From the IMG/VR virus record IMGVR_UViG_3300021479_000061, positions 1 to 22,798 of that record: a stretch of 22,798 nucleotides of DNA, one strand, 5' to 3'. This document shows, piece by piece, positions 1 to 18,812 of the stretch. Every line of letters starts with the position of its first letter. Within the stretch, counting starts at the first letter, position 1. The notes under the pieces were generated by a model. The model searched no databases. It saw only the letters and a program-made list of their open reading frames with translations, and was not told where the DNA came from. Position numbers and translations under genes: made by a program. This DNA comes from a virus.

Positions 1-3000
1 TCGCCGCCGCCGCCCCTGGCTGTAGCTCCGGCCCCGCCATCGCGCGCTTGAGCGACTCGATCTCGGTGACCATCGGTCGCCCGCCCATGGCTTTGACGTT
101 GTCCATGGTGTTGAGGATCTGATCCTTGAGGAAGCGCTGGAAGGACGTGGCGTTCTGCAAATACTGCTGCGGAACAGCGTCGATGCCGAAGATCGACGCC
201 GCCTTAGCGGCAAGCTCTGCCTTCTCTTCCGCGAACGCCCCAGGCTGGTAGCTCTGCATCAGGCCCTTGATTTCCTCCAGCCGGTCATTCACGACCTGAC
301 GCGCTTGCATCTTCTGTGGAAGCGCGGCGTCGGTCTTGGCGGCGTCCTCGCCCATGCCCTTGCCGTATGCGATCTGCGATTCCGTGCTCGCCTTCTCCTG
401 AGCGACGCCAGGGATCTGAACGCCGCCCGCCATGCCACCCTCCCAGATCTTATGGGCTTGTTCGATGAACGACGCCCCCTGCTTCCTCGTCGTCTCGTCG
501 GGGCTGGCCAAGTAGAGTTGCCCGCGACGCACCAGTTCATACGGGTTCTCGGACCACTGCTTGTCCTTCCAGAACTGATCGTCCGGTCCTGGCGCTCCCG
601 GAGGCGCTGCAGACGCGTCAGGAGCCGCGCTGGGCGGCGTTGTCGCTGTCGGGGCTGCAGTGGTAGGCGCGGCGGCTGGAGGGGCGCTGGCGGGCTTCCC
701 TGTGGGTCCTGCAGGGGTCGTGCTGGTCACCGTGGGAGAGACGGCGCCGGGGCCGATCGGCACCTTCGGTCCAGCCGCGACAGGCGACTTCACGCTTGGC
801 GCGGTCGAGGGAGCCGAGGGCGCAGAGGTTGACGGCGCGGACACGGCGCCGGGGAGCGTCGGCATCTGCGGCGGATCGCCCTTGCCGCCGCCTGCGAGCC
901 AAGTCTGATACTGGACGCCATATGCGCCCAGCTTCGCCTTGTACATCTCAAGGCTCAGATTCTGCGTGGCGAGATTGGTCTGGGCGTCGCGGTATTTCGC
1001 TTGGCTCTGATAGTCCTGGATCTGGGCCTCGTTCTTCTGCCACTCGCGATCGAGTTCACGCTGCTTCTGCATGTACTGCATGCCCTGCATCGCGCCCTGG
1101 CCGATATTGGTCATGGCGTTCGGCGAGGTGCCGCCCATGATGGAAAAGCCCACCGCCATCAGCGTCTGGCTGAGATCAGGCGACATGAGCTTTCTGTCGG
1201 GCGGGCGAGCGGCGTCCTCTATGGCCGCGTTCATCTGCTGCTGCTGCTGCCCGTTCTGATCAGGGCCGCCCGCGTAGGCCAGCGCACTTCCGCCAGAGCC
1301 GCCGCCACCACTGCCGCCACCGCCACCACCACCACCCTGGCCCTTGACGTAGGCATCGCCCTTCCATGGTCCGAGGCCGCCTTTCTTCATCTGATCCATG
1401 GCGAACATGTTCGCCTTTTGCCATTGGTTGGGATCGCGCGGGTCGATGCCCGCCTTCTCTGCGTCAACGCCCATGCCCGCCTTGGTGTTAAGCTGGAAGT
1501 CGCCAAAGCTGAACGGCTTCCCATTCTCGACATCGACGGTCGAGGGACCAGCGCCGGGGGCGTTGAGGCCTTCGGCGCGGGTGACGCCAGATGCGCGGTT
1601 GGGATCAAGGCCGATGCTCTTCGCATAGGCGCGGTTGAAGGCGTCGCGCTGGGCGGGGGTCGTCTCGGCGCGGTTGGTCGGGAACGCGGAGGCATCGAAC
1701 TTCGAAGCCGCAGCGGGCGCAGCCGCCGTGGCAGACGAGGGGATCACGATCGGGGCAGGAGCAGGGACTGGCGCAGGAGTCGGGGGCGCGGGCGGGCCAG
1801 CACCAAGCATTGGCGCGGACCCGCCCTCATCAAAACCCGAGCGTGTGATCCCTCCCAGCCCATAAGCGATGCGACCGCCGGTCGCGCTGCCAAATGGGCG
1901 GAGCCACTCACCGCCCCCTCGCTGTTGCGCCAAGGCCTGTTGCTGGGCGGGGCTCATTGCGGCTTCCGCCGTCTGAGCGGTCACCACCCCTCGTGGGGCT
2001 GGGGCCGTCGGCGGGCCGGTTGCGCTCGCGGTGGCTGGCGGGGCGCCAGGGGCAGGACTGCCTGGGTTTGCAACGACAGTAGGGGCAGTTGGTGGCCCTT
2101 GCGTCTCGCCGCCTCCATACCCCTGGTTAGCATATCCCTCGGTAGGCGCCACGCTGGGCGAATAGGCTGGCCCGAAGGTCGGCCCTTGCTGCGATGGCGA
2201 TCCACCCCCATACCCACCAGCAACAGCGGGGCCGGCAGGGCTTGGCGTGGGAGTGCCGCCTCGGTTGGCTATCTGGTCCTTTAGCGCCTGAATGACAGTA
2301 GGATTGCCGAGGCCTTGTCCTTCCGCGACCGCGTCGCTGCCGATGCCACCAGGGCCGACGCTAAGCCCCGGCGCGCCGAGTCCGCCCGGTCCCCCGGCGA
2401 CGGCGTCGCTGCCAATGCCGCCGGGGCCCCCTGGCCCTAAAGTGGCGAATGCGTTCTGCCCTGTATTGCTGGCCGCAAGGCCAGGATCGTTGCCTTTGAC
2501 AGTCGCAAACCCGTAGCCGGGGGCAACGCCCGCCCCGAGGGCTTGCAGCGAGTCTCGTACGGCGGTGTCACTCTGGGCCGCCGCCGCGTTGGCCTGCCCC
2601 TGCGGGCTGTGGGTGCCAGTCCCAAATCCAGAGCCGAATGCAGATGGCGTTCCGCCAAAGGCCCTCATCTGCGCCAAGGCCTGTTGCTGGGCGGGGCTAA
2701 GCGCAGCTTCCGCTTGCTGGGCGGTTATAGCCCCTGCATGCGCCGAACCGATGCCAAAGGCGTTGCCGATCGCAGCCGCCAGCCCTCCTGGGCCTGCCGT
2801 CGTGCCGCTCCCGCCTGCCGCCGTGCCGCCGCCACCGCCTGTCGTTCCACCTCCAAAGCCCCCACTGCCTGATGGACCTACGGAGTAACCGCCCACCCCT
2901 GGTGTTCCGCCCGTACCGGCAACGCCACTAGGGCCAACGGAGTTGTCCGCGCCTATGCCAAGGCCAGGACCATAGCCTGTGGTAGTTCCCATGGTAGCAC

Positions 3001-5947
3001 TACCACCAGCGTCGCTCGTTCCGTCGTCGGCAGTGCCGCCGTCCTGAAACCTCGATCGTACGATCCCACCAAGGCCGTAGCTGCCACTGTCGTCAAACGC
3101 CGTGTCCGAAATGTTGGAGAAGGTGTCGGCCCCGCCGGTCGTCGAAACGTCGTCAAGGGTGGCGAAGTCAGCGCTGCTGGGGCCACTGGCGCTGCTGGCC
3201 ATGTTCTTGCCGATCTGGCCGATCGCCTTGCTAAGCTGGTCCGAGGACTTGAGCATGTCGTTGAGCGACATCGCCTGTGACTGCGACGGGGTCGCGCCCT
3301 TCGGGATGCTGCTGCCAGCCGCCGTCAACGGCGCAAGATTGACGAGCGACATGGCGCTCGGGATCGGCTGGACCGTGGGCATTTGCCCGTAGGCGCCCAA
3401 CGAAGCGAGGCCGCCGCCTTGGAAGCCCTCGCGCGCGGACTTGGAGCCCGCGTCGAACAGGCCGCCGAAGCCCGCGCCTTGGCCTTGGCTGTCGCGGCCG
3501 GTCACGCCGTGGCCCTGCGGCGTGTAGCCGGTGGCGCCCACGAGCGGCATCTGGCCCATGACGCCGCCCGAGTTGAAGCTCGGACGGTCTTCATCACCCC
3601 AGGAACCAGCTATCTGATCGTCAGCAGCAGCGGGCCTCTCTGGGTATCCAGCGATCGGGTTAAACATCATGCCGCTGCCGATCCGGAAGCGGTTCAAATC
3701 GATTCCGGTCGGGAACCTCCCCGGATTCGGCGTGTCATTCGGGTTGAGCGTCGGCAGGGTCATCTGCGGCTGGGCATTGGCCTGCGGGCGCGGATAGGTC
3801 TGATCTGGCCAGCGGATCGACGGGTCTCTCGTTTCGTCAGGATTGAGGGCAGGCAATGGCATTGGCGCGTCGGGCCGCGAGACGCTGACGGTCGGCCGAG
3901 GAGGCGGCGCCGGAGCCTGCGCTACGGGCGCAGGAGCGGGGCGAGGCGGCGGGTAGGGAACGTGGGCAGGGAGAGGCGCGCGCGCAGCAGGCGCGCTATG
4001 CCGAGGCGTATATATCGGTCTTGAAGGGGGCAGCGGCGCGGGAGCGGCAGCAGGAGCAGGGATCGCCGGATGATAGGCCGCGCCGCGCGCATTGCCAGTC
4101 GTCGGCGTGTAATAGCTGTAGCGCGGATCATCCAGGCCGCCGCCCTCCTGTCTTCCGATCCGTCCGCCGCGCGCATGCGGAGCCGTCTGGGTGGCTGGCG
4201 TCTCGATCCCCGGCCGCGCGATCAGGCCAGCCAGCGAATTTTCCGCCCCTGCAGTCTGAAAGTCATTGGCCGGGTGCTGATAGTCGATCGGCGCAAAGGT
4301 CGTCCCCGGCGGCGCGCCGGCAAGGTTCGGCTGCGACGGTGTGATAACGTCATTGCCGAACGACTGGCCGCCAACCCCGCCCGCGCCGCCACTTGCGCCG
4401 CTCCCCCCGCTCGCGGCGGAGAACAAGATGTTGGGCACGCCGGATACTGGGTTCGGGCTCCCCCAGCCCTGCGCAATCGCCATCGGCGTGGCGTAGTCGA
4501 TGAAGCCGAGATCAGGCGCCGTCGTGGCGTTGCCAAACGTCGGCGTAGCGCCACCGCCCTGGTAGGGCAGGCGCCCGTAGTTGATCGCCGGATAGGGGGT
4601 CAGGGGCGAAGGGCTGCTGCCAGACGATGTCGTTGGCGCGCGCTGGCCTTGGCCGAACAGCGTCCCTGCCGGCGAATAGTAGAGGCTACCTGCGCCCTGG
4701 CGCCCAGACCCCGCGCCCGCCCCTGGCACCCCCATCATCGCCAAAGCCCCAGCGGGGCTGAAATGTCCGGACCCTACGTCGTAGGGCGTTCCTGTGGGGC
4801 TGACGCCGCCCAAACCGCCGCCAGACTGGAAACCCGCGCGCTCCGCTTCTCTGGTGGCGGCGTCGTAATCGACGTATTTTAGGCCGCCAAAACCCTCGCC
4901 AACGGCGCTCGGATGTCGACGCTCGACCTCCTGGGCGCTGAGCCCGATCTGGGTGCGAGGGTCGCCTCGGTAGTTGAACTTATAGATCGTCTGATCGTCG
5001 AAAGTCTTGCCGACCGGTTCGAGGTTCTCTTTCATCCGGACGTCGGAGAAGATGCCCAGCGCGGAGGCGGCGCTTCCCAGCGCGCTGCTAACGCCGGGAC
5101 TGCCGAGAGCGCCTAATCCCGCAATGCCCAGGCCAAGGTCCTGGCTGAGGCTGCTCGGACCCGGCGCTGACGTTGACGACGTTCCCCCGCTCGCGCTGCC
5201 GATCCCCTCGATGACATTGCCGAGAAAGCCGGTCGTCTGAAACGGATAGGCCTGCCCCTGCGTCCAGTCGCTCTGCAGCGCCGTGTCGATCGCCTGCTGC
5301 TCGGTCTGCGGAACCATCCCGGCGCTGACGTCGGCGGTCGCGCCCTGGAGGCCTGCAGTCTGCAGCCCCGCGCCAATGCCAGCGGTCTGCGCCGCCCCGG
5401 CGAGTTGTGTTTGCTGCTGGTTGTTAAATTCCGCCAGCGCCTGTTCGTAGTTGGTCTGGTTGAGGCCCGCGATCGTCGGAGCCTCGGACAAGTCCTGCTG
5501 CCCAGCCAGGATTGCTTGCGAGACGCCCGCCCGGTCGCCGCCGAACGCGCCCGCACCGATGTTCTGGCTGTTCAGGAACTGCGCTTGCTGTTCGTTTTGG
5601 TTCTGAAACTCCGCCTGAGTCGCGTTGACGACGTCTGTTGTGAACGGGTTCTCGTACTGGCCGATCGACGCTGCGGTCGGGCCCGCCATCGCCGCCTGCG
5701 TCTCCTGCCCCGCTTGGGTGTAATAAGGCTGCGCCGCCTGCGCAGCTTGGCCGACTTGCCCAAGCCCGGTCAGGGTCTGGTTGCTCAGCGGCGCGACTTG
5801 TTCGCCGGGATAGGGCGTATAGGGCGTGTTGGCGACGCTGGTCGCCCGGTTCACAAGGCCCTGGTAATTGGCCAATACCTGGGGCGGCGGCGCCGACGCC
5901 TGGGTCGTCGTTTGCTGATTGCCGGTCCCGCTGCCCTTTGAGCCCAT
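1..5947 (-). CDS. Giant virion protein with S74-like and lysozyme-like regions (probable DNA-ejection protein), 3' end outside window
   Basis: Translating the minus strand from the ATG at 5945-5947 gives 1,982 codons without a stop up to the left edge, so the C-terminus is missing. The start follows GGAG at 6-nt spacing and lies 3 bp after the GNAT gene. Residues 1-300 are Gln/Ala/Gly-rich (start MGSKGSGTGNQQTTTQ). Residues about 300-371 resemble the S74 intramolecular chaperone: SDVRMKENLEPVGK, then TQIGLSAQEVE and KYVDYDAATREAE. A long Gly/Ala/Pro-rich region with internal repeats follows. Residues about 1418-1530 look like a virion lysozyme or transglycosylase: TRAEGLN with candidate Glu1459, SFGDFQLNTKAGMG, GIDPRDPNQWQKA and GPWKG. 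Next come Gln5, a SPNAMTNIGQGAMQGMQYMQ motif typical of ejection or tape-measure proteins, and charged helices. Inferred role: internal virion/ejection protein that opens peptidoglycan, like T7 gp16. Family-level function is likely; exact identity is not established. Confidence 0.85.
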   Translation of the reverse strand, partial: MGSKGSGTGNQQTTTQASAPPPQVLANYQGLVNRATSVANTPYTPYPGEQVAPLSNQTLTGLGQVGQAAQAAQPYYTQAGQETQAAMAGPTAASIGQYENPFTTDVVNATQAEFQNQNEQQAQFLNSQNIGAGAFGGDRAGVSQAILAGQQDLSEAPTIAGLNQTNYEQALAEFNNQQQTQLAGAAQTAGIGAGLQTAGLQGATADVSAGMVPQTEQQAIDTALQSDWTQGQAYPFQTTGFLGNVIEGIGSASGGTSSTSAPGPSSLSQDLGLGIAGLGALGSPGVSSALGSAASALGIFSDVRMKENLEPVGKTFDDQTIYKFNYRGDPRTQIGLSAQEVERRHPSAVGEGFGGLKYVDYDAATREAERAGFQSGGGLGGVSPTGTPYDVGSGHFSPAGALAMMGVPGAGAGSGRQGAGSLYYSPAGTLFGQGQRAPTTSSGSSPSPLTPYPAINYGRLPYQGGGATPTFGNATTAPDLGFIDYATPMAIAQGWGSPNPVSGVPNILFSAASGGSGASGGAGGVGGQSFGNDVITPSQPNLAGAPPGTTFAPIDYQHPANDFQTAGAENSLAGLIARPGIETPATQTAPHARGGRIGRQEGGGLDDPRYSYYTPTTGNARGAAYHPAIPAPAAAPAPLPPSRPIYTPRHSAPAARAPLPAHVPYPPPRPAPAPVAQAPAPPPRPTVSVSRPDAPMPLPALNPDETRDPSIRWPDQTYPRPQANAQPQMTLPTLNPNDTPNPGRFPTGIDLNRFRIGSGMMFNPIAGYPERPAAADDQIAGSWGDEDRPSFNSGGVMGQMPLVGATGYTPQGHGVTGRDSQGQGAGFGGLFDAGSKSAREGFQGGGLASLGAYGQMPTVQPIPSAMSLVNLAPLTAAGSSIPKGATPSQSQAMSLNDMLKSSDQLSKAIGQIGKNMASSASGPSSADFATLDDVSTTGGADTFSNISDTAFDDSGSYGLGGIVRSRFQDGGTADDGTSDAGGSATMGTTTGYGPGLGIGADNSVGPSGVAGTGGTPGVGGYSVGPSGSGGFGGGTTGGGGGTAAGGSGTTAGPGGLAAAIGNAFGIGSAHAGAITAQQAEAALSPAQQQALAQMRAFGGTPSAFGSGFGTGTHSPQGQANAAAAQSDTAVRDSLQALGAGVAPGYGFATVKGNDPGLAASNTGQNAFATLGPGGPGGIGSDAVAGGPGGLGAPGLSVGPGGIGSDAVAEGQGLGNPTVIQALKDQIANRGGTPTPSPAGPAVAGGYGGGSPSQQGPTFGPAYSPSVAPTEGYANQGYGGGETQGPPTAPTVVANPGSPAPGAPPATASATGPPTAPAPRGVVTAQTAEAAMSPAQQQALAQQRGGGEWLRPFGSATGGRIAYGLGGITRSGFDEGGSAPMLGAGPPAPPTPAPVPAPAPIVIPSSATAAAPAAASKFDASAFPTNRAETTPAQRDAFNRAYAKSIGLDPNRASGVTRAEGLNAPGAGPSTVDVENGKPFSFGDFQLNTKAGMGVDAEKAGIDPRDPNQWQKANMFAMDQMKKGGLGPWKGDAYVKGQGGGGGGGGSGGGGSGGSALAYAGGPDQNGQQQQQMNAAIEDAARPPDRKLMSPDLSQTLMAVGFSIMGGTSPNAMTNIGQGAMQGMQYMQKQRELDREWQKNEAQIQDYQSQAKYRDAQTNLATQNLSLEMYKAKLGAYGVQYQTWLAGGGKGDPPQMPTLPGAVSAPSTSAPSAPSTAPSVKSPVAAGPKVPIGPGAVSPTVTSTTPAGPTGKPASAPPAAAPTTAAPTATTPPSAAPDASAAPPGAPGPDDQFWKDKQWSENPYELVRRGQLYLASPDETTRKQGASFIEQAHKIWEGGMAGGVQIPGVAQEKASTESQIAYGKGMGEDAAKTDAALPQKMQARQVVNDRLEEIKGLMQSYQPGAFAEEKAELAAKAASIFGIDAVPQQYLQNATSFQRFLKDQILNTMDNVKAMGGRPMVTEIESLKRAMAGPELQPGAAAA
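1926..1954. repeat. 29-bp direct repeat in the giant gene, copy 1
   Basis: The sequence (starts tgcgccaaggcctgttgctg) is identical at 2670-2698. It encodes the SPAQQQALAQ part of a longer repeated segment (TAQ(T/Q)AEAA(M/L)SPAQQQALAQ). Confidence 0.85.
2670..2698. repeat. 29-bp direct repeat in the giant gene, copy 2
   Basis: This is identical to 1926-1954. The flanking protein also repeats: YGLGGIVRSRFQDGG (3.06 kb) pairs with YGLGGITRSGFDEGG (1.85 kb), so a block of the linker region appears to have been duplicated. Confidence 0.85.
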
Positions 5948-5950
5948 GGC

Positions 5951-7286: not shown

Positions 7287-7532
7287 TCACTTGTAATAGG
7301 CGACCTTGCGGAGGCCGACGCGCGGAATGTCGATTGTGATGTAGCCGTCTAGTTCCGGCGGCGCGCCGCCTTCGCTTGCGGACGCGGCTTCTGAAGCCGT
7401 GATTGGGCCACCGACCGACGCAGTGTAGGCGTGCGTCTGGACGGCGCTGACGAGATTGCCAATCGCCACGGTTATCGCCTGCAGCGCGGCGACGACGGGT
7501 TGGAGATCTCCAAAGGAGGAGAGGGGAGGCAT
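7287..7532 (-). CDS. Small conserved phage protein of unknown function (81 aa)
   Basis: The stop of the nozzle gene overlaps the ATG at 7530-7532 (TGATG). A GTG one codon upstream is possible, but AAGGG is better spaced (7 nt) for the ATG. The N-terminal half is an Ala/Val-rich amphipathic or mildly hydrophobic helix (VVAALQAITVAIGNLVSAVQ, about 13-32). A Ser/Ala-rich linker follows. The C-terminus GYITIDIPRVGLRKVAYYK looks like a short beta hairpin of a type common at the ends of small phage virion proteins. There is no signal peptide and no convincing transmembrane segment. The tight coupling to the nozzle gene suggests a minor virion or assembly protein, but this is inference. Confidence 0.7.
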   Translation of the reverse strand: MPPLSSFGDLQPVVAALQAITVAIGNLVSAVQTHAYTASVGGPITASEAASASEGGAPPELDGYITIDIPRVGLRKVAYYK

Positions 7533-9094
7533 CACCCGGCCCTTCCATCAGGCGAAAACCGGAACTTCACCGCGCCTAAGCGGACGAAGCTCCCCAGGTC
7601 TGATCCCTCCACTCGGAGACTGAAATAACGCCCGCGTGCGCGCGGGTCAAATGGGCCCGAGCTATCGGTGCAAGTAAAGGGCCCGTAAACCTTGGGCGGC
7701 TTCGACGGATTGTCGCTGTCGTCTTGCGTGTAAAGCGTGATCTGGACCTGAGCGCTGCTCTGCACGTTGTCCTGAAACTGACGCCAGCGGAAGTCAGGGC
7801 GACAGCGATCGACGAACAGGAAGTCCTCGCCTTCGCTGAGCAGGAACAAGCCGGTGCGAAACCACCAGTCCATCGGCTGATCGTCGGCGTCCCGGCCCGT
7901 CTCGTGCATCATGATCTGCGATGCCGTGCCCCCCGGCAGCGTCATCGCCGAGATGGGATGGCCCATCACGTTCATGTCGATCCAGTCGGAAACCATGAGG
8001 CCGCCCTTTACCGGAGGGCTGTTGGAGAACACGTCGACCGGCGTGCCGTAGTCCCATTCGCCAGTGACCCGGTTGAATTTGACGTAGGAATCGTTCTCTG
8101 GCAGCGCGCCCGCGACCATGGTCGCAACCGAGGGGAAGAACCAAGTGATCTCGTCAAAACCGGCGTTTGTACCGCAGCGAATTTTGTCGAGAAGATTGGT
8201 ATTCAAATTCTGGAAGACGGCGTCATAGACCTCGCAAGGGATGGGCGCGACCTGACCGCCCGAAAAGGTCCAGAACCGATCGCGCGACATCCAGAACACC
8301 TGGGTGCCGCAGACCGCAACGGCCTTCTTGCTGATGAGACCGCATTCCTGGGCGATTTCGTTAAAACCCCATACATCGGGGTACCCGATGTACGTCATCA
8401 ACCACAGGCCGACGTCGGTCCACAACATTGCCTGCATCGGCGTCTGCATGCCGCCGACGATCTTCGATCCGCGCGCGAGGCGAAAGCTGCCAGCCTGATT
8501 GCTCACTGCGGCTGTCCAGTCAGTGTAAGAGGCGTTGTCGGAGAACCGCACCAGCATCGGATCTTGCACGGCGGTCGTCCCGGTCGCGGCGCCGTACAGC
8601 ACCAACTGCTGTTGCGGCATCGCCAGAAACATGCCTTCGGAGACCAGCGGCGCAGTCGGGATCAGTTGCGCCGTGTCTGCGCTCCCGGCCGTCCAAATGA
8701 ACAAGCCCCCGCCCTCGGGCTGAGCAATCAGGTCTTGGCCAAAATTGACCAAGCACCAATCGTCGACCGGCGTGGGCACGTTAGGGCCGGTCGGCGTAAT
8801 GGGCGTATCTTTGCCGTTAGAGATGACAAAGAGGCCCTGGTCGCCGCCAAGGGCGAGGTAATAGTTGTCGTTGAAGTCCGTCCATGGCCACATCTCGCGA
8901 ATTGGCCCTGGCATTGTTGGCGGCACGAGACTCTGCCCAGGAATGGAGAAGAAGAACTTCTTCCATCCGCCCATCTTTTCTGCGAGCCCATCGCGCCATC
9001 GGAGGTTGTTGGACTGGCAGATGGCCGCCTGGAGCAGAAGCGGCGTCTGCTCGGCGTGGACCCCCGGCATCAGCTTGACGGTCATGAACGGCAT
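7532..9094 (-). CDS. Probable tail nozzle / packaged-DNA stabilisation protein (520 aa)
   Basis: The N-terminus KLMPGVHAEQTPLLLQ followed by QSNNLRWRDGLAEKMGGWKK (about 28-47) is characteristic of phage tail-tube, nozzle or stabilisation proteins of short-tailed phages (compare T7 gp12 and P22 gp10). Repeated Trp/Gly beta motifs follow, such as REMWPWTDF, YYLALGGDQGLFVIS, LIAQPEGGGLFIWTAG and VFWMSRDRFWTFSGG. These are consistent with a beta-propeller. The start ATG lies 3 bp after the adaptor stop; only a weak GGGG-type ribosome-binding site is seen, so coupling is likely. Immediately downstream of an adaptor gene is the standard position of the nozzle. Precise orthology (T7-like or P22-like) cannot be decided from sequence reading alone. 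Confidence 0.75.
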   Translation of the reverse strand: MPFMTVKLMPGVHAEQTPLLLQAAICQSNNLRWRDGLAEKMGGWKKFFFSIPGQSLVPPTMPGPIREMWPWTDFNDNYYLALGGDQGLFVISNGKDTPITPTGPNVPTPVDDWCLVNFGQDLIAQPEGGGLFIWTAGSADTAQLIPTAPLVSEGMFLAMPQQQLVLYGAATGTTAVQDPMLVRFSDNASYTDWTAAVSNQAGSFRLARGSKIVGGMQTPMQAMLWTDVGLWLMTYIGYPDVWGFNEIAQECGLISKKAVAVCGTQVFWMSRDRFWTFSGGQVAPIPCEVYDAVFQNLNTNLLDKIRCGTNAGFDEITWFFPSVATMVAGALPENDSYVKFNRVTGEWDYGTPVDVFSNSPPVKGGLMVSDWIDMNVMGHPISAMTLPGGTASQIMMHETGRDADDQPMDWWFRTGLFLLSEGEDFLFVDRCRPDFRWRQFQDNVQSSAQVQITLYTQDDSDNPSKPPKVYGPFTCTDSSGPFDPRARGRYFSLRVEGSDLGSFVRLGAVKFRFSPDGRAG

Positions 9095-9097
9095 GGC

Positions 9098-10384
9098 TCA
9101 CGGCCCCGGTGTGGCGGGCGGCGTCGGCGGCGGCGCCTTCTCGGACGTCAATCCCATCCACCCGTGCACCTTCTTCCGCATCTCTTCGGCCTGGGCGGGA
9201 GCGAGCAGCGTCTGATAGTTCGTCTCCCACGACATCGATTGGCGTGGATCGTCGGCCGAGGCGCTCCAATTGTGCTGGTAAGCAGAGCCCGCGCACATCG
9301 CGGCGGCGAGGAAGAGATCCGGCAGGATCGCGGTCAAGACAGTCGTCTGCGTCCCATCGCCAGGGGCCGCCTGATAGAGAGGCGTCGGGCGGAATTTTCC
9401 GATCAATTCTGTCGCGTAATTCTGATCGGGGAAAGGCCCGACCAGGATCGAATGGTCGTCGTTCATGGCGTAATATTCTGGCATGCCCCTGGTCTTGCTC
9501 AGCCCGTAGACCATGCGCAGCCATTCTTTGCTGACGGGAACGAGCGGCACGCGCTCGCCCTGGTCGGCGGCCAAGAAAGCGCCGCCATCTATCTGGTCAC
9601 CTGGATTGACGGCGATCACCCATTGCGCGGAAACCCCATCGTCGTACCAGACGTACAACTGAGCGTCAGTGGTGCTGAACCAGAGCGCGCCATTGGCTGG
9701 CGAAGGCGGCGGAGCATCGCCGACGGACGCGAGGTTGGCAGTAGCGCTAATGCTGCGACTTCCCTTGCTTCTCGGCGCGCCGCCGGAGCCCGGATTGGTC
9801 GCGATCACCCATTGGGATGAGTCGCCATCGTTGTACCAGACGTAAAGTTGCGCATCGCTGCTGCTGAACCAGAGCGCGCCGTTCGCAGGGTTCAAGGGTG
9901 GAGCGTCGCTGACTATGGCGCGCGCGGAGCCGCCGCTGCTTCCGCCGCCTACGCCCGCTGGGCCGCCCGTCCCCTGGTTGGTCGCGATCACCCATTGGGT
10001 CGAGTTTGGATCAACGAACAGAACATACAATTGCGCGTCCGTGCTGCTGAACCACAGGGAGCCGTTGACCGGCCCAGCGGGCGGGCCGTCGCTGATGATC
10101 ACCGCAGCGCCGACGACGTTGTGGTCTGTGACGACGAGGTTGACGTCCTCCAAGATCAAAAGCTGCGGCATGAGACTGGAGAAGTCGAGCTTCGATGAGC
10201 CGCGCGTCAGATGGGCGATTTGCGTCGAGGTGGCGTAGAGGAGGTCGAGGTCGCGGTAGCACCGCTGTTCGGCTTGATCGATCAGGGTCTGCAGGATGGC
10301 GACGAACTGGGCGTCGGTGGGGTCGTTGTTAGGGACCGCCATTTCAATTGCTAAAGCTTGGCTGAAACTAGCGTAGGTGAACAT
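9098..10384 (-). CDS. Probable head-tail adaptor with three inserted fibre-type repeats (428 aa)
   Basis: Residues 1-93 (MFTYASFSQALAIEM, LIDQAEQRCYRDLDLLYATS) and about 278-412 (SKEWLRMVYGLSKTRGMPEY, LVGPFPDQNYATELIGKF, LPDLFLAAAMCAGSAYQHN) resemble the adaptor family that sits below the portal in short-tailed phages (T7 gp11 / SU10-adaptor type). These halves are separated by about 180 residues with three tandem repeats of about 42 residues (about 97-138, 158-200, 222-262). Each has the form SDxPPxxPxNGxLWFSSxDAQLYV..QWVIATN, and Gly/Ser linkers join them. Similar units occur in the 612-aa and 714-aa fibre proteins. The ATG at 10382-10384 is chosen because MFTYxSFSQAL looks like a natural N-terminus. 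An upstream TTG at 10420 would overlap the 344-aa gene, and neither start has a good Shine-Dalgarno. The C-terminus is Pro-rich. Confidence 0.78.
   Translation of the reverse strand: MFTYASFSQALAIEMAVPNNDPTDAQFVAILQTLIDQAEQRCYRDLDLLYATSTQIAHLTRGSSKLDFSSLMPQLLILEDVNLVVTDHNVVGAAVIISDGPPAGPVNGSLWFSSTDAQLYVLFVDPNSTQWVIATNQGTGGPAGVGGGSSGGSARAIVSDAPPLNPANGALWFSSSDAQLYVWYNDGDSSQWVIATNPGSGGAPRSKGSRSISATANLASVGDAPPPSPANGALWFSTTDAQLYVWYDDGVSAQWVIAVNPGDQIDGGAFLAADQGERVPLVPVSKEWLRMVYGLSKTRGMPEYYAMNDDHSILVGPFPDQNYATELIGKFRPTPLYQAAPGDGTQTTVLTAILPDLFLAAAMCAGSAYQHNWSASADDPRQSMSWETNYQTLLAPAQAEEMRKKVHGWMGLTSEKAPPPTPPATPGP
9599..10096 (-). repeat. Three tandem repeat units inside the adaptor gene
   Basis: Units lie at about 9971-10096, 9785-9913 and 9599-9724. 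At DNA level the shared words include gatcacccattg, gtaccagacgta and gctgaaccagagcgcgcc. At protein level each unit encodes a core NGxLWFSS(T/S)DAQLYV plus QWVIA. The units are similar but not identical, so the duplication is not very recent or is under selection. Confidence 0.85.
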
Positions 10385-10388
10385 GGGC

Positions 10389-11423
10389 TTAGCGCGCGGA
10401 CGCGCCCTCCAGCGCGGCAACCTTGGCGCTCAGTTCGTTGACCGCGTTGATGAGCACCGCGACGATGTTCGAATAGGCGATGCCCAGCATCGGGTTGGCA
10501 GGGTCTCTCGGATCGCTCGGCTGCGGGGGCGACTCAAACACCACCTCTGGCAGCGGCTTAATGACATCCTGCGCGATCAGCCCCACCTGTCGCCGGGGAT
10601 CGGACTTGAACTGATAGAACACGCCCTGCAATTGGCTGATGATGGCGAGCGCATCCTTGACCGGCTCAATGTTCCGCTTCGACCGCCCGTCGCTGCCGTT
10701 GACGATCGGCTGCGCAAAGGTGACGACGCCCGTTGCGCGGCTGATCTGGATCGGCAGGGAGAGCGACGCCCCAGAGTCAGAGAAGTTCGAAATGAAAAAC
10801 CCTGATCCAGAGTTGGGGGGTGAGCCAGTCTCATTATTCGTGTCAGAACCCATCTGCCAGCGAACCGAGCCATTGTTCGTAAGGGTGATCGCCGCAAAGT
10901 GGGTCGCACCGGCTTTGTTCAGGATCAGATCCGCAGCGGCAGGATCAAACGTCCCCGGATACGGCGTCGCTCCCGCTCCGTTTATCTTTACCGGACTGGT
11001 GATCGTTCCAGCGGTTCCGCCACCAGTCGGCACGACGGCCCAAGCCGCGCTTTGACGACCATAAAGCTGACCATCGGTTGGCGCGTCCGCGAGGCCCCCC
11101 GAGCCGGAGTGCGCGTCGACATACTGCTTGGTCGCGGCGCCAAGCGGAACCGTGGGATCTCCGGCAAGGATCAAGGGGCCCGTCAAGGCGCCGCCAGTCA
11201 GGGGCAAACCACCCCCGCCGCCACCCTGACCAGTAGGCACAACCGTCCAAGCGGCGCTCTGACGACCATATTGCTGGCCATCGAGCGGGGCTTCTGGGAC
11301 GCCGCCCCCGCCACCCCCCGACGAGGCGGCGCTCCCCCTCCATTTCACACCGTCCCAAGTCCAAGTTGCGCCGGCAGAAACGAAGGTCTGCCCAACTGTC
11401 GGGTTATTAGGGAAGTCGAGCAT
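10389..11423 (-). CDS. Tail fibre/appendage protein with C-terminal S74 chaperone domain (344 aa)
   Basis: Anchor type B opens the protein: MLDFPNNPTVGQTF with TWTWDGVKW (1-28). Two copies of an (E/D)APxDGQxYGRQSAAW(T/A)VVPTG unit follow (about 43-65 and 112-134). They flank a fibre repeat, LPLTGGALTGPLILAG with GAATKQYVD (about 73-103). A beta region containing ISRATGVVTF comes next; this unit is also in the 612-aa protein. The C-terminus (about 244-344) is an endosialidase-type intramolecular chaperone: SDGRSKRNIEP, QVGLIAQDVIKPLPEVV, then a helix NAVNELSAKVAALEG. Ser244 and Lys249 have the spacing of the S74 catalytic dyad, so autocleavage releasing the last ~100 residues is plausible. The gene starts 3 bp after the 714-aa gene and is preceded by an AGAGGGG ribosome-binding site. 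Confidence 0.85.
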   Translation of the reverse strand: MLDFPNNPTVGQTFVSAGATWTWDGVKWRGSAASSGGGGGGVPEAPLDGQQYGRQSAAWTVVPTGQGGGGGGLPLTGGALTGPLILAGDPTVPLGAATKQYVDAHSGSGGLADAPTDGQLYGRQSAAWAVVPTGGGTAGTITSPVKINGAGATPYPGTFDPAAADLILNKAGATHFAAITLTNNGSVRWQMGSDTNNETGSPPNSGSGFFISNFSDSGASLSLPIQISRATGVVTFAQPIVNGSDGRSKRNIEPVKDALAIISQLQGVFYQFKSDPRRQVGLIAQDVIKPLPEVVFESPPQPSDPRDPANPMLGIAYSNIVAVLINAVNELSAKVAALEGASAR

Positions 11424-11426
11424 GGG

Positions 11427-13571
11427 TCATCCCCTCTTCTGCATGGCGGCGATCCGCCGCGCTTCACGTCGCGACGGGATGTGGGTCGCGCGGACCAAGG
11501 GTGCTGGCGGCTCCTCCGGAAGCAGTGCCGGGGGCGCGTCTGAACTAAATGGTATATTCGGCCCCTGGAGGTTCCAAGAACTTATAACAAGTTGAGCTTG
11601 ATTGCCGAAATAAGGAAGTTGACCGCCAATTCCTCCAGTGAACAACGCCACTATAGGGATAGTATAGAACAGTGCGGTTGTGTACACAGGCAGGTAACTT
11701 AATCCGTCTGTGCTGATTTGAAACGAAAATGTCGTAGTCGTAGCAATGAGACGAACCCATATCTTGTTTCCAAGGCTTGGAATAAGGTAACCGTTTCCTG
11801 TCGGGAAAAGACTACCACCATCATAATTAAGATAAGCCGCATTAACAACGTTCACTAGATTATTAGCCCACCTAGTTTGATTATCATAACCCCCAATCTG
11901 CATCATCAGAAAACCAGTATTCACGTTCAGACTTTGCGACATCCCAACACCGAACGACAAATTGCCGGTATAACCAGCACTGGGGTCAAGGAACAAACCA
12001 AGAGAGGAAATAGCGATGTCAAGGGTATACGGAGGTATGGGTTGCGACCCAACACTTATTGCCGAACAATACTGACTTTGATAAGTCTGCGCGTTCGAAA
12101 GAGCCTGAAACGCCACCCCGCCTGGAACATCAACAAGCAGGACATCTGGACCTGCCGAGTATGAAAAGTTTACAGTGGCCCAGTTCGCAGCCGGTGGCGG
12201 CGGCACGACGAGCGGACCTCCGCCTCCACCGCCCCCTCCACTCCCGATAGCATTATCTATGTACAACCACACAAATGATTCAGGAATAAAATCTCTTTCC
12301 GCACGAATTCTAAGCGCGTTACACCCGCCAACGTGCGTCGTAAAACCACCCATGGCGACAATTGGAACGCCACCACCGGGCGCTACACCCGGCCCAACTT
12401 GAGGAACAACACCAGGATTAGTGGGCGATACTATATCACCACCCGGCATAACGGTGCATATGCCAAAGTCGTTTGAATAGCCATCAATTATAAAACCTGT
12501 ACTAACATTGTAACTAGGAAAAGGATTCAAAGAATTAAGCGCCCAAATGAGCATATTCTGAGTTGACCATGTTACACCGTTGTCAGCCGATACATCCAAA
12601 TATAAATTACCAGTAAGAACATTAGTTGCTAAACCACTAATGAACATCATCAAAGTGCCACCAGTCAATGGAATATTATTAAAAACAGCCGTTGTATTAC
12701 CGGGCTGTATCATAACATTATCAATAACTTTGGTCCAACCCGATCCAGTAACACCCCCACCTCCGCCGCCACCGCCACCGCCAGGGGGAAGGCCCGCAAT
12801 GGCTGTTGCGATGCTGTCATCAACATATTCCTTGGTCGCTGCGCCCAGCGCAGCGGTTGGATCGGCATTTAGAATGAGATTGCCGAGCATGGTCCCGCCG
12901 CCAAGCGGCAAGAACGGGCCACCCGACGGCGGCGTTCCCGACGCCCCGCCGCTAACCAGGACCCATGACCCGCCAGCGCCCGTGCCAGGGTCGTACCAGA
13001 TCGTCAGTTCATCGACGGGAGGAGGGTTGAACCACAGATCGCCGTCAACCGGATTGGGAGGCGGCAAGGGGCCAATGGAAACATCGCCTCCGGGGGGTCC
13101 AGGAACCCCTGGCGGTCCCGCGACGCCAGGAGGTCCAGGAACCCCGCCAGGGCCGATCTGATCCCATTGCAGCGGATTGAACGTCCCTGGACTGACCGCC
13201 TGATTGGCGACGTAGAGGACGCTGTTGTAGGTGACGAAATCGCCGGTAGCGTAGCTCGACGTCGGCGAAAACTTCCTCACCGCGAAGTCGACTTCCCCGA
13301 CCAGCACGGCCCATTGATTAGGGGCGAACGGCCCTGGCGCCACCGGGCCGATCGCGCACCAGAGGTCGCCATTGAAGATGACGAAGTCGCCGAGGTTGTA
13401 AGCCGCCGTGCTGGAAAAGAAACGCACCGCAATCAGATCGATCGGGGTGTTGCTGGCGTTGATCACGCCAAGCTGCAGATCCGCCCAGTTGGTGTAGAGT
13501 TCTCCGGGGAATCGTCCCACTGGACGGGCGAGCGGAACAGAACTCCTGATTGTTTGAATCCGATTCGTCAT
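11427..13571 (-). CDS. Large modular tail fibre/receptor-binding protein with AT-rich distal half (714 aa)
   Basis: Anchor type A (about 1-50, PVGRFPGELYTNWADLQLGV) is followed by two CBM5/12-like units (about 51-91 and 98-138) with the pattern YxxGDxVxYNxxLYxA...P..W. A collagen-like stretch (about 140-162) and a GDLWF unit (about 165-208) follow. A LPLGGGTMLG/GAATKEYVD fibre repeat (about 219-252) and a ten-Gly linker (264-273) come next. Two beta-rich domains (about 278-470 and 475-680) are separated by a second poly-Gly run. The C-terminal domain looks lectin-like. The end is Pro-rich and basic (HIPSRREARRIAAMQKRG). DNA for residues about 281-680 is strongly AT-rich compared with all flanks, except the poly-Gly linker. 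GAGAGG lies 10 nt before the ATG. The likely role is host-surface binding; the ligand is unknown. Confidence 0.82.
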   Translation of the reverse strand: MTNRIQTIRSSVPLARPVGRFPGELYTNWADLQLGVINASNTPIDLIAVRFFSSTAAYNLGDFVIFNGDLWCAIGPVAPGPFAPNQWAVLVGEVDFAVRKFSPTSSYATGDFVTYNSVLYVANQAVSPGTFNPLQWDQIGPGGVPGPPGVAGPPGVPGPPGGDVSIGPLPPPNPVDGDLWFNPPPVDELTIWYDPGTGAGGSWVLVSGGASGTPPSGGPFLPLGGGTMLGNLILNADPTAALGAATKEYVDDSIATAIAGLPPGGGGGGGGGGVTGSGWTKVIDNVMIQPGNTTAVFNNIPLTGGTLMMFISGLATNVLTGNLYLDVSADNGVTWSTQNMLIWALNSLNPFPSYNVSTGFIIDGYSNDFGICTVMPGGDIVSPTNPGVVPQVGPGVAPGGGVPIVAMGGFTTHVGGCNALRIRAERDFIPESFVWLYIDNAIGSGGGGGGGGPLVVPPPPAANWATVNFSYSAGPDVLLVDVPGGVAFQALSNAQTYQSQYCSAISVGSQPIPPYTLDIAISSLGLFLDPSAGYTGNLSFGVGMSQSLNVNTGFLMMQIGGYDNQTRWANNLVNVVNAAYLNYDGGSLFPTGNGYLIPSLGNKIWVRLIATTTTFSFQISTDGLSYLPVYTTALFYTIPIVALFTGGIGGQLPYFGNQAQLVISSWNLQGPNIPFSSDAPPALLPEEPPAPLVRATHIPSRREARRIAAMQKRG
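11540..12730. other. AT-rich cassette encoding the distal domains of the 714-aa fibre
   Basis: Hand counts give 21/60 G+C for 11821-11880 and 18/60 for 12481-12540, against 37/60 in a typical flanking line (8881-8940). The boundaries coincide with protein domain boundaries: the ten-Gly linker on one side and the basic tail on the other. A small GC-rich island at about 12190-12245 encodes the internal poly-Gly linker. The reading frame stays open throughout, so this is coding DNA of different composition rather than an insertion that breaks the gene. Confidence 0.75.
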
Positions 13572-13593
13572 GGCTATCTAGCCTCTCGCTCAT

Positions 13594-13609
13594 GGCGTCA
13601 TATGACGCC
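13594..13609. promoter_or_regulatory. Perfect 16-bp palindrome upstream of the 714-aa fibre gene
   Basis: GGCGTCATATGACGCC reads identically on both strands. It lies 22 bp before the ATG of the 714-aa gene, in the only sizeable intergenic gap of the window. A second perfect palindrome, ATCGTACGAT, sits two bases away at 13612-13621. This could be a protein-binding operator or an RNA structure masking the translation start region. It has no T-run after it, so it is not a typical terminator. The function is inferred. Confidence 0.4.
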
Positions 13610-13620
13610 CAATCGTACGA

Positions 13621-13695
13621 TCATCTCGTCGGACGCGGTACACCTTTCCTGGTCAGACGCGCCACACTCTCCTCAAGCGCGCTGATGTCATTATA
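13621..13695 (-). pseudogene. Remnant of a second copy of the 85-aa coiled-coil gene
   Basis: A 21-bp stretch at 13667-13687 is identical to 15046-15066, which encodes ISALEES near the end of the 85-aa protein. Read in the matching frame, 13621-13695 gives DISALEESVARLTRKG and ends at a TGA, but it has no start of its own. The TAATG junction here provides an ATGACAT close to the ATGACCT start of the 85-aa gene, but in another frame. This fits an internal out-of-frame deletion of a former copy that followed the 119-aa gene. Loss of the reading frame is seen directly; the history is inferred. Confidence 0.55.
13690..13695 (-). promoter_or_regulatory. Possible -10 box (TATAAT) of an internal promoter
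   Basis: The minus strand reads TATAAT across the stop codon of the 119-aa gene, directing transcription into the gap before the 714-aa fibre gene. The best -35 candidate, TTCAAC, is poor (3 of 6 matches) with a 19-nt spacer. The hexamer could be chance, because it is made from the CTA-TAA end of the coding region. It is listed because it lies at the only real gap and is followed by two palindromes. Confidence 0.22.
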
Positions 13696-15284: not shown

Positions 15285-17123
15285 TCACGAAAGCTCCGCG
15301 TCAAGGTTAACTCCAAATGTAACTCTAGACGTAGCGGTGACGCCGGTAGTAAAACTTGCATTAATAATAGAATTTCCAGGAGTAGGAGCCGATACAAAAG
15401 CTAATCCAGCACCAGTACCAGTATACACTGGACTCACAGGCGTAGCAGTTGGAACTATTCGCTTTGGAACACAACCTATTGACATATATGTAGTGCTATT
15501 GCTAGTTACACCATTTATTAAGCAACCATCAATACGCTCAAAATATCGTTGACAATCTGCCAGATTTTTAGCCGCCGACTGCTGCTCAAACGGCGTCGCC
15601 ACGTCCCCAACCTCCAGTTTAACGCCGGTCAGGTGAAGAAAATTGCCAACGCCCACAGCCGGGCTCACCGCGCCATTGGCGCCAACGATCTGACCGGTGG
15701 CGGTCCAAACAAAGGGAGGACCGCGCGTCGTTGCGCCGCAACCGAGATCAAAATAGACCCATAGCCCCACGCCAGTGCCAACAAAAAGATGATTGAAACC
15801 ACTAGGATCGCCAGGAATCGTTACAGCGACCTTCGTCCAGGTTTGTGCCGGCGGTGGGAGTGAATAAGTAAATGGGCAGACTCGGCTCACAGTGCCGCCC
15901 CCCAGCGATCCGCCAAAGAGTCCGGTCAGGTTGGACCGAGCCCAAAACGATAAAGTGACCGGTGTCGCCCCATTTCCAAACCTAACATCAGCAAGCATGC
16001 TAGCTTCAATAGCATGCTGCCAAGCATTGGCTTCGGCCGCACCTAAAGCGAGATTAGAATTCGAGGCAAAGGCCAGATAATAATAAAGATTAGAAGCAAG
16101 AACGAGCGGATCAGTATTAGAGGGGACCGTGATCCGCTGACAGTTTGCAGCTCTACCTCCGTTCCTTACATTACGCCAACGATCAGCAACCATACCAGTA
16201 ACATTCGTGCCCGTAACCACCGCGCCGTTATTACGCTGATCAATTGACATATCGCCATTGATGATGCGATTGAAGTTACTCCCAGCGCCGAGGGGAACAT
16301 ACGTTAACTGATCGGTCCCAAGCCTAGCCTGATTCCCCGCATCGGTTGAGATAGCGGTCGGCCCTGGAGGACCAATAGGACCAGTGTTACTAATCACCGG
16401 CACCCATTGGGACGAGGTGGCGTCCACGTACCAAACGTACATTTGCGCGCCGACGCTATCCCACCACAGATCTCCTTCTGAAGGGTTGAGGGGCGCTGTA
16501 TCGCTGACAGTTGCGCCACCGGCGCCCCCGCCAATTGGAACACCGAGGACAGTCGGAGCGGCTCCAAAGTCAGCAACACCCGTAGCGCGGCTAATAGTCA
16601 GCGCGGGCGGCATGAGGTTGCCAACATCGCTGCAAGGAGTCAGAACGAAATTAGAGCCAGCATTCACTCCGCTCTCAGCAGTATAATCTGCGAATTGTAC
16701 CTGCCAGCGGTTTACCCCGGCGGTCTGAGCAATGAGCGCCCTTGCGCTCCCCGCTGCTCCATTGATCACAACGCTGTTGTTGGCAGGAAACCGGACAATT
16801 CCAGTGAACGTGCCCCCCGACAAAGGCATGTAGAGAGCGAGGTCCGTCGCCATCGTCACGACGGTCCAGTCAAGCGGGTTGAATGGCCCCGGTCCAAAAA
16901 TGCCCGTCGCGATATAAATTTTGCCGTTGTAAAGGACGCAGTCACCTGTGAAATAGCTCGCTGCGGCTGAGAAATGGCGCACCGCGATCAGGTCGACGGG
17001 CGCGTTCGTGTCGTCGATCACCCCCAACTGGTTGTCGGGCAAGTTCACATAAAGCTCACCTGTGTCCCGTCCGACAGGACGGGCGCCAGCGGTCGAGCTT
17101 CGCAGGATCAGAATGCGGTTCAT
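15285..17123 (-). CDS. Modular tail fibre/receptor-binding protein, anchor type A (612 aa)
   Basis: Residues 1-50 are anchor type A (ILRSSTAGARPVGRDTGELY, then DNQLGVID). A CBM5/12-like unit follows (about 51-89; SYFTGDCVLYNGKIYIATG, PLDW). A fibre repeat MPLSGGTFTG (about 99-108) and a unit ending LTISRATGVADF (about 140-186), shared with the 344-aa protein, come next. A GDLWWDSVGAQMYVWY unit (about 206-247) is related to the adaptor repeats. The distal part (about 285-610) starts with RIINGDMSIDQRNNG and ADRW, and contains VKLEVGDVATPFEQQS and DCQRYFE. This matches the jelly-roll tip of the 325-aa protein. The protein ends in NLDAELS. The ATG is preceded by GAGGGG and lies 13 bp from the upstream stop. 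The last ~90 codons and 16.0-16.3 kb are AT-richer than the anchor. Likely role: adhesion to the host surface. Confidence 0.82.
   Translation of the reverse strand: MNRILILRSSTAGARPVGRDTGELYVNLPDNQLGVIDDTNAPVDLIAVRHFSAAASYFTGDCVLYNGKIYIATGIFGPGPFNPLDWTVVTMATDLALYMPLSGGTFTGIVRFPANNSVVINGAAGSARALIAQTAGVNRWQVQFADYTAESGVNAGSNFVLTPCSDVGNLMPPALTISRATGVADFGAAPTVLGVPIGGGAGGATVSDTAPLNPSEGDLWWDSVGAQMYVWYVDATSSQWVPVISNTGPIGPPGPTAISTDAGNQARLGTDQLTYVPLGAGSNFNRIINGDMSIDQRNNGAVVTGTNVTGMVADRWRNVRNGGRAANCQRITVPSNTDPLVLASNLYYYLAFASNSNLALGAAEANAWQHAIEASMLADVRFGNGATPVTLSFWARSNLTGLFGGSLGGGTVSRVCPFTYSLPPPAQTWTKVAVTIPGDPSGFNHLFVGTGVGLWVYFDLGCGATTRGPPFVWTATGQIVGANGAVSPAVGVGNFLHLTGVKLEVGDVATPFEQQSAAKNLADCQRYFERIDGCLINGVTSNSTTYMSIGCVPKRIVPTATPVSPVYTGTGAGLAFVSAPTPGNSIINASFTTGVTATSRVTFGVNLDAELS
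15291..15297 (-). promoter_or_regulatory. Ribosome-binding site embedded in conserved C-terminal codons (for the 85-aa gene)
   Basis: GGAGCTT is formed by the GCG-GAG-CTT codons of the terminal DAELS of the 612-aa protein. GGAG is 9 nt before the ATG. Confidence 0.6.
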
Positions 17124-17136
17124 GACCCCTCAAAAC

Positions 17137-18078
17137 CTATGGGAACGTGCCTGCATCGAGGATCGCATTGTCGACATAGCCCATGGTCGCCGCATGCAGC
17201 GGAATGGTCGGGGGTCCAGCGAGCGTGAGCGCGCCGGTCAGCGTGCCGCCGCCAAGCCCCAGATAGCGTGTATCGGCCTCGGCCACCGTCAAGCCAGAAC
17301 CCTCGACCGTGTCGAAGGCCGCGCCGTTCCAGATGACGAGATCGCCGTTGCCAACCAACGACCCACCGACGCCCAATACGCCAGCGGGCGCGAGTTCCGG
17401 CACGGCCGGATCGACGGTGACCGCCATGTAATAGTCGCCCATGGTTATCCCGGCAGGGGTGCCATTGAGGTTCGGGATGTTGGCCGCCACCTCCCAGGTC
17501 CCCCGGAACAGCCGAAGAGCAGCGATCGCGGTGTCGACGTAGTCTTTGTTCGCCGCTTCCGTCTGCAAGGTCGGTGGACCCGGCTGGAGGATCAGCGCGC
17601 CCAGCATCGTCCCGCCCGCGAGCGGGAGCCGCGACGTGTCGGAGGGATGGACGTGATCTTCTCGCGCCCAGATGGTTGTCGTGCCGACCGCCGCCACGCC
17701 ATCCATCAGCGGGGCAATCGTGGCGGCGGGGAGAACCGTCGTCACATCGGCCGTGGTCAGGACGACGGGACCGGTGCGGCCATTGAAGCTGTCGACGCCA
17801 GTCGCCGCGCCCACCACGGGCGTCCAGTTGACGCTCGGCGGCGGGGAATTAGTGTTCGCAGTGACGCAGACGAAAAGCTCGCCCGCGCTCAATACGACGT
17901 CATTGACGGCGTAGCTCGCCGTGCTGAGCCAGAACCGGACAGCGAGCAAAGGTGTCGCCGCCGCGTTCCAGACCCCGAACTGCCCATCGGCGAAGTTCAC
18001 CCAAGGTTCCCCAGCCGTCTTGCCAGCGGGCAGCACACCAGCCGTCGAAGAGCGGAGGATTTTGATGGTATTAGGCAT
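17137..18078 (-). CDS. Tail fibre/appendage protein, anchor type A, DAG-aromatic C-terminus (313 aa)
   Basis: Anchor type A opens the protein (IKILRSSTAGVLPAGKTAGE, then FGVWN; about 1-50). A CBM5/12-like unit (about 51-89) ends in PPPSVNWTPVV. A segment FNGRTGPVVLTTADV (about 98-112) runs to IWAREDHVHPSD, also seen in the long right-edge fibre. A further unit (about 152-300) contains LPLAGGTMLGALILQ, EAANKDYVD and RGTWEVAANIPN. This unit is related to two tandem units of the right-edge fibre. The protein ends AILDAGTFP, like the 158-aa (IIDAGAF) and 80-aa (WDAGYYY) proteins. AAAGG lies about 8 nt before the ATG. It has no large distal domain, so it may be a linker or short fibre rather than the receptor-contacting tip. 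Confidence 0.78.
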   Translation of the reverse strand: MPNTIKILRSSTAGVLPAGKTAGEPWVNFADGQFGVWNAAATPLLAVRFWLSTASYAVNDVVLSAGELFVCVTANTNSPPPSVNWTPVVGAATGVDSFNGRTGPVVLTTADVTTVLPAATIAPLMDGVAAVGTTTIWAREDHVHPSDTSRLPLAGGTMLGALILQPGPPTLQTEAANKDYVDTAIAALRLFRGTWEVAANIPNLNGTPAGITMGDYYMAVTVDPAVPELAPAGVLGVGGSLVGNGDLVIWNGAAFDTVEGSGLTVAEADTRYLGLGGGTLTGALTLAGPPTIPLHAATMGYVDNAILDAGTFP

Positions 18079-18093
18079 GGCGCTTACCTTTCT

Positions 18094-18570
18094 TCAGAAT
18101 GCTCCTGCGTCGATTATGGCGGTCCAAGCCGCGTTCAGTCGACCATAGGTGGTGCCGTCGCTCGGGGCATCAGGGATGCCGCCGCCGGGACCGACTGGGA
18201 CCACCACCCAGGCGGCGTTCTCGCGCCCGTAAAGCTGACCATCGCTGGGGGCGTCGGCGATGCCGCCGCCTCCGCCGCCCCCGAGGTTGGTCCCGCTTAT
18301 CGCCTCCCAATTGACGTTGGGCGGCGGCTGGTTGGTGTGCGGGAATAGGCAGCGATAGATGACGCCCGCCGAGACGACGAGGTCCTCGACCACGTAGGCG
18401 GTCGTCGGGGACCACCAGCGGATCGCCAAGAGGTCCATCGGTTGGGCGGTGTTGCCGTCCCAGACGCCCCACTGACGGTCACTGTAATTGACGTATGGCT
18501 CGCCATCCTGCCGCCCAGCCGGCCGGACGCCGGTGGCGTTGCTTCGAAGGATGCGGAGGACAGCGGGCAT
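18094..18570 (-). CDS. Short tail appendage protein, anchor type A (158 aa)
   Basis: The start ATG (18568-18570) overlaps the TGA of the 80-aa gene (TGATG). An in-frame extension to 18783 is open but Arg/Gly-rich, antisense-like and overlaps that gene, so it is rejected. The protein contains anchor type A (LRILRSNATGVRPAGRQDGE, QWGVWDG; about 1-50) and a CBM5/12-like unit (about 51-91) ending PPPNVNWEAISG. A Gly7 linker follows. Then come two copies of (A/P)DAPSDGxxYGRxNAAW (about 105-121 and 133-149). It ends AIIDAGAF. It looks like the minimal member of the type A series and could be a base-plate-proximal connector onto which longer fibres dock. That role is inference. Confidence 0.75.
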   Translation of the reverse strand: MPAVLRILRSNATGVRPAGRQDGEPYVNYSDRQWGVWDGNTAQPMDLLAIRWWSPTTAYVVEDLVVSAGVIYRCLFPHTNQPPPNVNWEAISGTNLGGGGGGGIADAPSDGQLYGRENAAWVVVPVGPGGGIPDAPSDGTTYGRLNAAWTAIIDAGAF

Positions 18571-18812
18571 CAGTAATAATACCCCGCGTCCCACTCCAGG
18601 TCCGGGTCGACCGGCCCTGGCACGCCTTGCGGCCCCTGCAGGCCCTGCGGCCCAACCGGCCCCACCGGTCCGACCGGCCCCACCGGGCCCGCGACGGGCG
18701 CGTACCACTGGCTCACCAAAGGCGAGGTGTTGAACTGGACGCGGATGGCGTCGCCGACCGCTGGGTTCGGCGGCGGCAACCATCGCGCGAGATCGAACGC
18801 CCTGGTCGTCAT
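18570..18812 (-). CDS. Collagen-like small appendage protein (80 aa)
   Basis: The ATG at 18810-18812 overlaps the stop of the cupin-like gene (ATGA). A longer open frame to 19049 is an Arg-rich shadow of that gene. The N-terminus MTTRAFDLARWLPPPNPAVG leads into QFNTSPLVSQWYAP. Residues about 41-67 are Gly-X-Y triplets (GPVGPVGPVGPVGPQG and on), which should form a short collagen-like trimer. The end is WDAGYYY. Collagen-like segments are frequent in phage fibres as trimerisation or spacer elements, and a similar stretch occurs in the 714-aa protein. Coupled translation with both neighbours suggests it is made in step with the fibres. Confidence 0.72.
   Translation of the reverse strand: MTTRAFDLARWLPPPNPAVGDAIRVQFNTSPLVSQWYAPVAGPVGPVGPVGPVGPQGLQGPQGVPGPVDPDLEWDAGYYY

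Follow-up and report, generated by a model that had tools for sequence, protein, structure and literature searches.

Three tandem fibre-type modules inserted in an SU10/T7-type head-tail adaptor of a phage

The window analysed here is a stretch of 22,798 nucleotides of viral DNA (IMG/VR record IMGVR_UViG_3300021479_000061). It holds a head-tail adaptor gene, with a nozzle-type gene downstream and a cluster of fibre genes upstream. The adaptor reading frame contains an insert with three copies of a small module, whose match values below were obtained with a profile built on repeats from other contigs only (the window-free profile).

7532–9094, minus strand: nozzle-type tail protein, 520 aa, adjoining the adaptor gene (phrog_3287, E = 5e-61)
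9098–10384, minus strand: head-tail adaptor gene of the SU10/T7 type, 428 aa from an ATG (Pfam, insert-less homologues, fold match)
9101–9559, minus strand: C-terminal part of the adaptor (aa 276–428), with the remaining dock strands, two helices and the C-terminal tail (Pfam match, alignment, predicted secondary structure)
9560–10129, minus strand: insert (aa 86–275), standing for ~10 aa of insert-less homologues (alignment)
9605–9727, minus strand: module copy r3 (aa 220–260; window-free profile E = 9e-22)
9794–9916, minus strand: module copy r2 (aa 157–197; window-free profile E = 3e-22)
9977–10102, minus strand: module copy r1 (aa 95–136; window-free profile E = 3e-21)
10130–10384, minus strand: N-terminal part of the adaptor (aa 1–85), comprising two helices plus the first strands of the dock (alignments, predicted secondary structure)
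10389–11423, minus strand: 344-aa fibre with a C-terminal intramolecular chaperone (Peptidase_S74, E = 3e-15), directly upstream of the adaptor gene and without the module
11427–13571, minus strand: fibre of 714 aa, whose single module copy, at about 12942–13091, is diverged (E = 2e-5 window-free, 1.6e-10 with the iterated profile)
15285–17123, minus strand: 612-aa fibre with one module copy at about 16380–16529 (tail-fibre PHROGs; module E = 7e-23)

An upstream TTG start would lengthen the adaptor ORF to 10420. The order of adaptor and nozzle-type gene is the same in relatives, and the product of 7532–9094 is presumably a nozzle protein, judged by its place beside the adaptor. It has 520 residues in the window and a similar length in L005–L007 and L009, and reaches about 750–1180 residues in L002, L003, L036, L041 and L044, where a large insertion lies near residue 100–110; in L002 and L003 this insertion region weakly matches an endosialidase β-barrel. 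Matches to CBM_5_12, a carbohydrate-binding module, were found at 11427–13571, 17137–18078 and 18094–18783, those in the 714-aa and 229-aa proteins being above cut-off. A 1983-codon frame (2–5950, minus strand) runs off the left edge of the window and possibly encodes a large internal virion protein.

The flanks of the insert are those of an adaptor, as a sequence-only reading of the window had proposed. Residues 273–400 match Pfam SU10_adaptor (PF24175) with 43.7 bits (E = 5e-11), well above the curated cut-off of 27 bits, and homologues exist that lack the insert. When the adaptor model was compared with solved adaptors, it matched those of cyanophage A4 (Z = 13.8), VP1 (Z = 13.4) and Pa223 (Z = 13.2) and SU10 gp11 (Z = 12.4). 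The whole-protein AlphaFold model has low confidence overall (mean pLDDT 54.8; 122 residues score 70–90), most helices and several dock strands lying at 65–85. It places a β dock domain between the helix pairs of a four-helix bundle, and the predicted order of elements is two helices, strands, insert, strands and two helices. A PDB sequence search with the adaptor returned no relative, and no relatives of the window type were found in bacterial genome contigs. The window adaptor presumably forms a dodecameric ring on the portal.

Adaptors are regarded as conserved, normally compact structural rings. Ten relatives align across both adaptor flanks, and one of them, L001, which is 99% identical overall, shares the insert. 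In the other nine (L002–L009 and the Manatee Spring phage MW202675) the sequence reads straight through the empty site (VNIVLPATVTNPELGER; in L002, for example, LILEDVNIVLPATVTNPELGERAPVYPVSKEWL). With the adjacent nozzle-type protein as query, a scan returned 80 loci, in which the adaptor profile then identified about 100 adaptor ORFs; among these, the complete ones besides those of the window and L001 measure at most 279 aa from stop to stop and hold no comparable insert. The family alignment comprises 66 distinct full-length, single-match sequences, all insert-less. In a sample of 398 genomes from the phylum to which an Achromobacter genome belongs, 38 hold an SU10_adaptor match above cut-off, nearly all in frames shorter than 300 aa; a 348-aa frame is long merely because the open frame continues upstream of the adaptor start, and one of 335 aa occurs in G254. 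The sequence-only reading had expected adaptors to be compact and had proposed searching homologues for variation in repeat number: the insert does not normally belong to this family, its site being empty in the homologues, and has been seen in just two contigs, which are closely related. An assembly chimera is unlikely because a second strain, most of whose flanking segments are 92–95% identical, carries the same insert. Between the window and L001, identity is 99% over 8608–10386 and 95% over 10444–13623. The break falls shortly upstream of the start of the adaptor gene, and the two adaptors also differ at several of their ~10 N-terminal residues, which together suggests a recombination point.

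The adaptor ORF, the insert and the repeats lie where they had been placed at first sight, to within about 40 bases. The length of about 180 residues given then is right for the net gain (~180 aa), while the insert itself spans ~190 aa. The three tandem copies are confirmed, with the spacers falling outside the repeat unit: each module has a length of ~41 residues, and between the copies there is first a Gly/Ser-rich linker of 20 residues and then one of 22. The best internal self-match of 41 residues has 32 identities, against a maximum of 14 in 100 shuffles; this control and the matches of the window-free profile rule out chance repeats or a reading error. The related units that had been noticed in the 612-aa and 714-aa fibres were also recovered with the window-free profile, the latter by a weak match.

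That the repeats are of the fibre type was likewise borne out. Three stretches each match the tail-fibre families phrog_3304 (E = 3e-20) and phrog_9729 (E = 9e-18), and in BFVD the module matches predicted fibre proteins, some from cyanophages and others from uncultured phages; several of these are annotated as collagen triple helix. Runs of at least six G-X-Y triplets, which we counted as collagen-like, are present in 37 of the 114 unique module-bearing ORFs, as compared with 111 of the 1802 ORFs of at least 200 aa from the same loci. Judged by these sequence matches, the module is a common module of phage fibres. One copy is found in 92 of the 114 ORFs, two in 19 and three in 3, a census that does not support a strict copy number of three. 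Three tandem copies occur in fibre-type proteins of the cyanophages S-B68 (L128, 1–3489) and S-CRM01 (L129, 2887–4197). The profile of another head-tail adaptor, Ad2 (phrog_211), weakly matches the module at 9599–10096 (E = 0.006), so the module may also be present in a different adaptor family.

One module-bearing ORF, that of L027, also matches the adaptor profile (SU10_adaptor, E = 2e-25). Its adaptor part is directly followed by one module copy and then by a fibre-type end domain of ~90 aa, which has weak similarity to Phage_depo_C. A scan with the L027 adaptor part returned 44 loci; the C-terminal module is present in eleven rows, some of them near-copies of each other, and the remaining adaptors have either a different C-terminal extension or none. 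In bacterial genome contigs one L027-type relative was found, in an Achromobacter genome. The adaptor cores of L228 (4001–5143) and L232 (4001–4987) share 96.5% DNA identity over 663 bp; their C-terminal parts differ, and only L228 has the module. A different insert of ~90 aa is located in the dock domain of the SU10_adaptor proteins of L254–L259 and L261–L263, between the last two dock strands. The extra loop of SU10 itself lies at about this place. The decoration of adaptors with extra modules is thus recurrent, since the L027 lineage has a C-terminal module and the L254-type group another dock insert, and gain or exchange has taken place at three places or more. The window protein is an unusual combination of a known adaptor family with a known fibre module, and the L027 lineage provides a second, independent case.

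In T7 gp11, a five-stranded β domain serves as the fibre dock (PMC6702177). The layout of SU10 gp11 is the same; here the dock loops project radially, and the long fibres are held by them at their coiled coil (PMC9509320). When the profile of the window adaptor family was aligned with SU10 gp11, the match was significant over the second helix; past this helix the global alignment is uncertain, and the insert site, judged by eye, corresponds to the turn near SU10 residues 82–88. On this assignment, the insert would lie between strands 2 and 3 of the small β domain that docks the long tail fibres in SU10 and T7. The long extra loop of SU10 (about residues 130–151) appears to lie between strands 4 and 5, on another hairpin. 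We propose that the hairpin between dock strands 2 and 3 has been lengthened by three small tandem β modules into an arm of 190 residues. The arm would point outward, although its orientation is not fixed by the full-length model because of the low confidence of the latter. With the usual dodecamer assumed, twelve arms would place up to 36 modules round the neck. We would not expect the arm to belong to the ring-forming machinery; it may be a displayed accessory, providing either an additional contact to the cell surface or support for the fibres that emerge at the same level. On balance, we consider it probable that the protein is an SU10/T7-type adaptor subunit with a three-module arm displayed for one of these purposes, and the display of surface modules already envisaged in the sequence-only reading is the interpretation that we prefer.

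The position of the insert within the fibre-dock domain could also mean that the arm is an enlarged dock element, which holds the bases of the long fibres through contacts other than the pairing of repeats. The fibre cluster adjoins the adaptor gene, and it is by its dock loops that SU10 holds the fibre coiled coil. However, in at least one relative without the insert (L002/L039) fibre genes likewise lie near the adaptor, the extra dock loop of SU10 is apparently on another hairpin, and the module of the L027 lineage sits at the C-terminus, which in SU10 embraces the portal. We therefore regard an enlarged dock as possible but not probable. Docking of the neighbouring fibres through repeat–repeat contacts, which had been suggested as well, is disfavoured because module-bearing fibres and module-bearing adaptors each occur without the other. 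In L002/L039 the module is present in fibres beside an insert-less adaptor, and around L027-type adaptors the few kilobases of flanking sequence retrieved can be free of any further ORF with the module, although such fibres may lie farther away. The two cases speak against an obligatory pairing of repeats.

A model of a single module (r2) is confident, with a core pLDDT of about 95. Its best match among solved folds is weak (Z = 4.7, r.m.s.d. = 2.0 over 40 aa) and lies at residues 583–624 of the CBA120 tailspike TSP3. This segment overlaps the D4 subdomain, described as a three-stranded unit that forms a threefold β-prism II when three chains come together (PMC6517402). The trimerisation domains of collagen XV/XVIII rank next, again as weak matches (Z = 4.0–4.3, r.m.s.d. 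= 4–5 over 47–49 aa); kinship with this collagen-type (multiplexin) trimerisation domain, suggested by the fold rank, is not supported by the sequence profiles, whose hhalign probability of 0.4% is within the range of column-shuffled controls. When the module was searched against PDB sequences, no plausible relative emerged. The 189-aa insert did not match B_lectin, the bulb-type GNA β-prism II family, at E values up to 10, nor did the members of the module family; more generally, Pfam assigned the insert to none of the recognised families of glycan-binding domains.

From the weak fold matches, a threefold assembly of modules is conceivable. The three copies, with their linkers of 20–22 residues, might then close a threefold β-prism within one chain and so imitate a trimeric fibre knob. 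The overlap with the three-chain prism of TSP3, the collagen XV/XVIII domains at Z of about 4 and the tandem triplets in the S-B68 and S-CRM01 fibre proteins would agree with this. Yet Z-scores below 5 are weak, and in the profile comparison the collagen domain does not score above column-shuffled controls. Pairs in tandem are common (19 ORFs have two copies, as compared with 3 that have three) and the L027 adaptor lineage makes do with one copy, so that we see a single-chain prism as a long shot. We also think it unlikely that such a prism, folded in cis on the dock domain, mimics a trimeric knob on a twelvefold ring and that, in a broader sense, the adaptor is an overlooked site of surface-module swapping.

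Copies r1, r2 and r3 form one clade (support 100/83) in the tree built from 143 module sequences, many other forks of which are unresolved. The simplest history, as read from these sequences, would be a single acquisition of a fibre-type module followed by amplification in place, because the three adaptor copies group together. Their mutual amino acid identity is 61–76%. Pairwise dN is 0.19–0.27 and dS 1.3–1.7, which is near saturation, giving dN/dS values of about 0.11–0.19. As dN is well below dS, this indicates purifying selection on the copies, part of which may predate the insertion. These values bear on the idea that the insert came from a nearby fibre gene through recombination, is nearly neutral and has no role of its own. 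Module-bearing fibre genes are indeed close by, phage genes recombine and the insert is confined to one lineage. The low dN/dS, with the reservations just given, speaks against a neutral gain, as do the divergence of the copies in a frame that is intact in two strains and the independent decoration of adaptors elsewhere, and we consider such a gain unlikely.

The preferred reading, a displayed arm on an adaptor subunit, can be set beside several known systems. With SU10 gp11 and T7 gp11 the window adaptor shares the helix bundle, the small β fibre-dock domain and the neighbouring fibre and nozzle-type genes. SU10 gp11, however, has 250 aa and is devoid of fibre-type modules, whereas the window adaptor has three between dock strands 2 and 3. 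The L027-type proteins, from other, uncultured soil phages, unite an SU10_adaptor protein with the same fibre module, but there one copy and the end domain of ~90 aa follow the C-terminus of the adaptor, in contrast to the three copies inside the dock domain. The closest established parallel to the arm is found in the lactococcal 936 phages, in which binding modules are located on the neck passage structure and one of them bound its host (PMC6669499). Like the window adaptor, the 936 neck passage structure and the evolved Dit proteins are structural neck or tail proteins with accessory binding modules (PMC6669499). They differ in being collar or distal-tail proteins of siphophages with other module folds, and binding has been shown there, whereas the arm is known from sequence. 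In the Dit proteins of T5, RcGTA and R4C, a domain with a proposed role in sugar binding is inserted in a tail ring protein (PMC7296036, PMC10276861), though both the ring protein and the domain fold are different. The D4 unit of TSP3 resembles the module as a small antiparallel β unit (PMC6517402); it is the closest, though weak, match of the module among solved folds, and the tailspike trimer has one unit per chain. The literature that we searched, with incomplete coverage, yielded no description of a fibre-module insert in an adaptor.

The decorated adaptors present three patterns, namely modules within the dock domain, a C-terminal module with an exchanged end and another dock insert, which suggests that phages have repeatedly turned the neck ring into a part that contacts surfaces. 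The naturally occurring pairs of adaptors with and without the insert make the role of the arm testable. If the adaptor modules do touch cells or fibres, searches confined to fibres and tailspikes would miss these determinants of host range.
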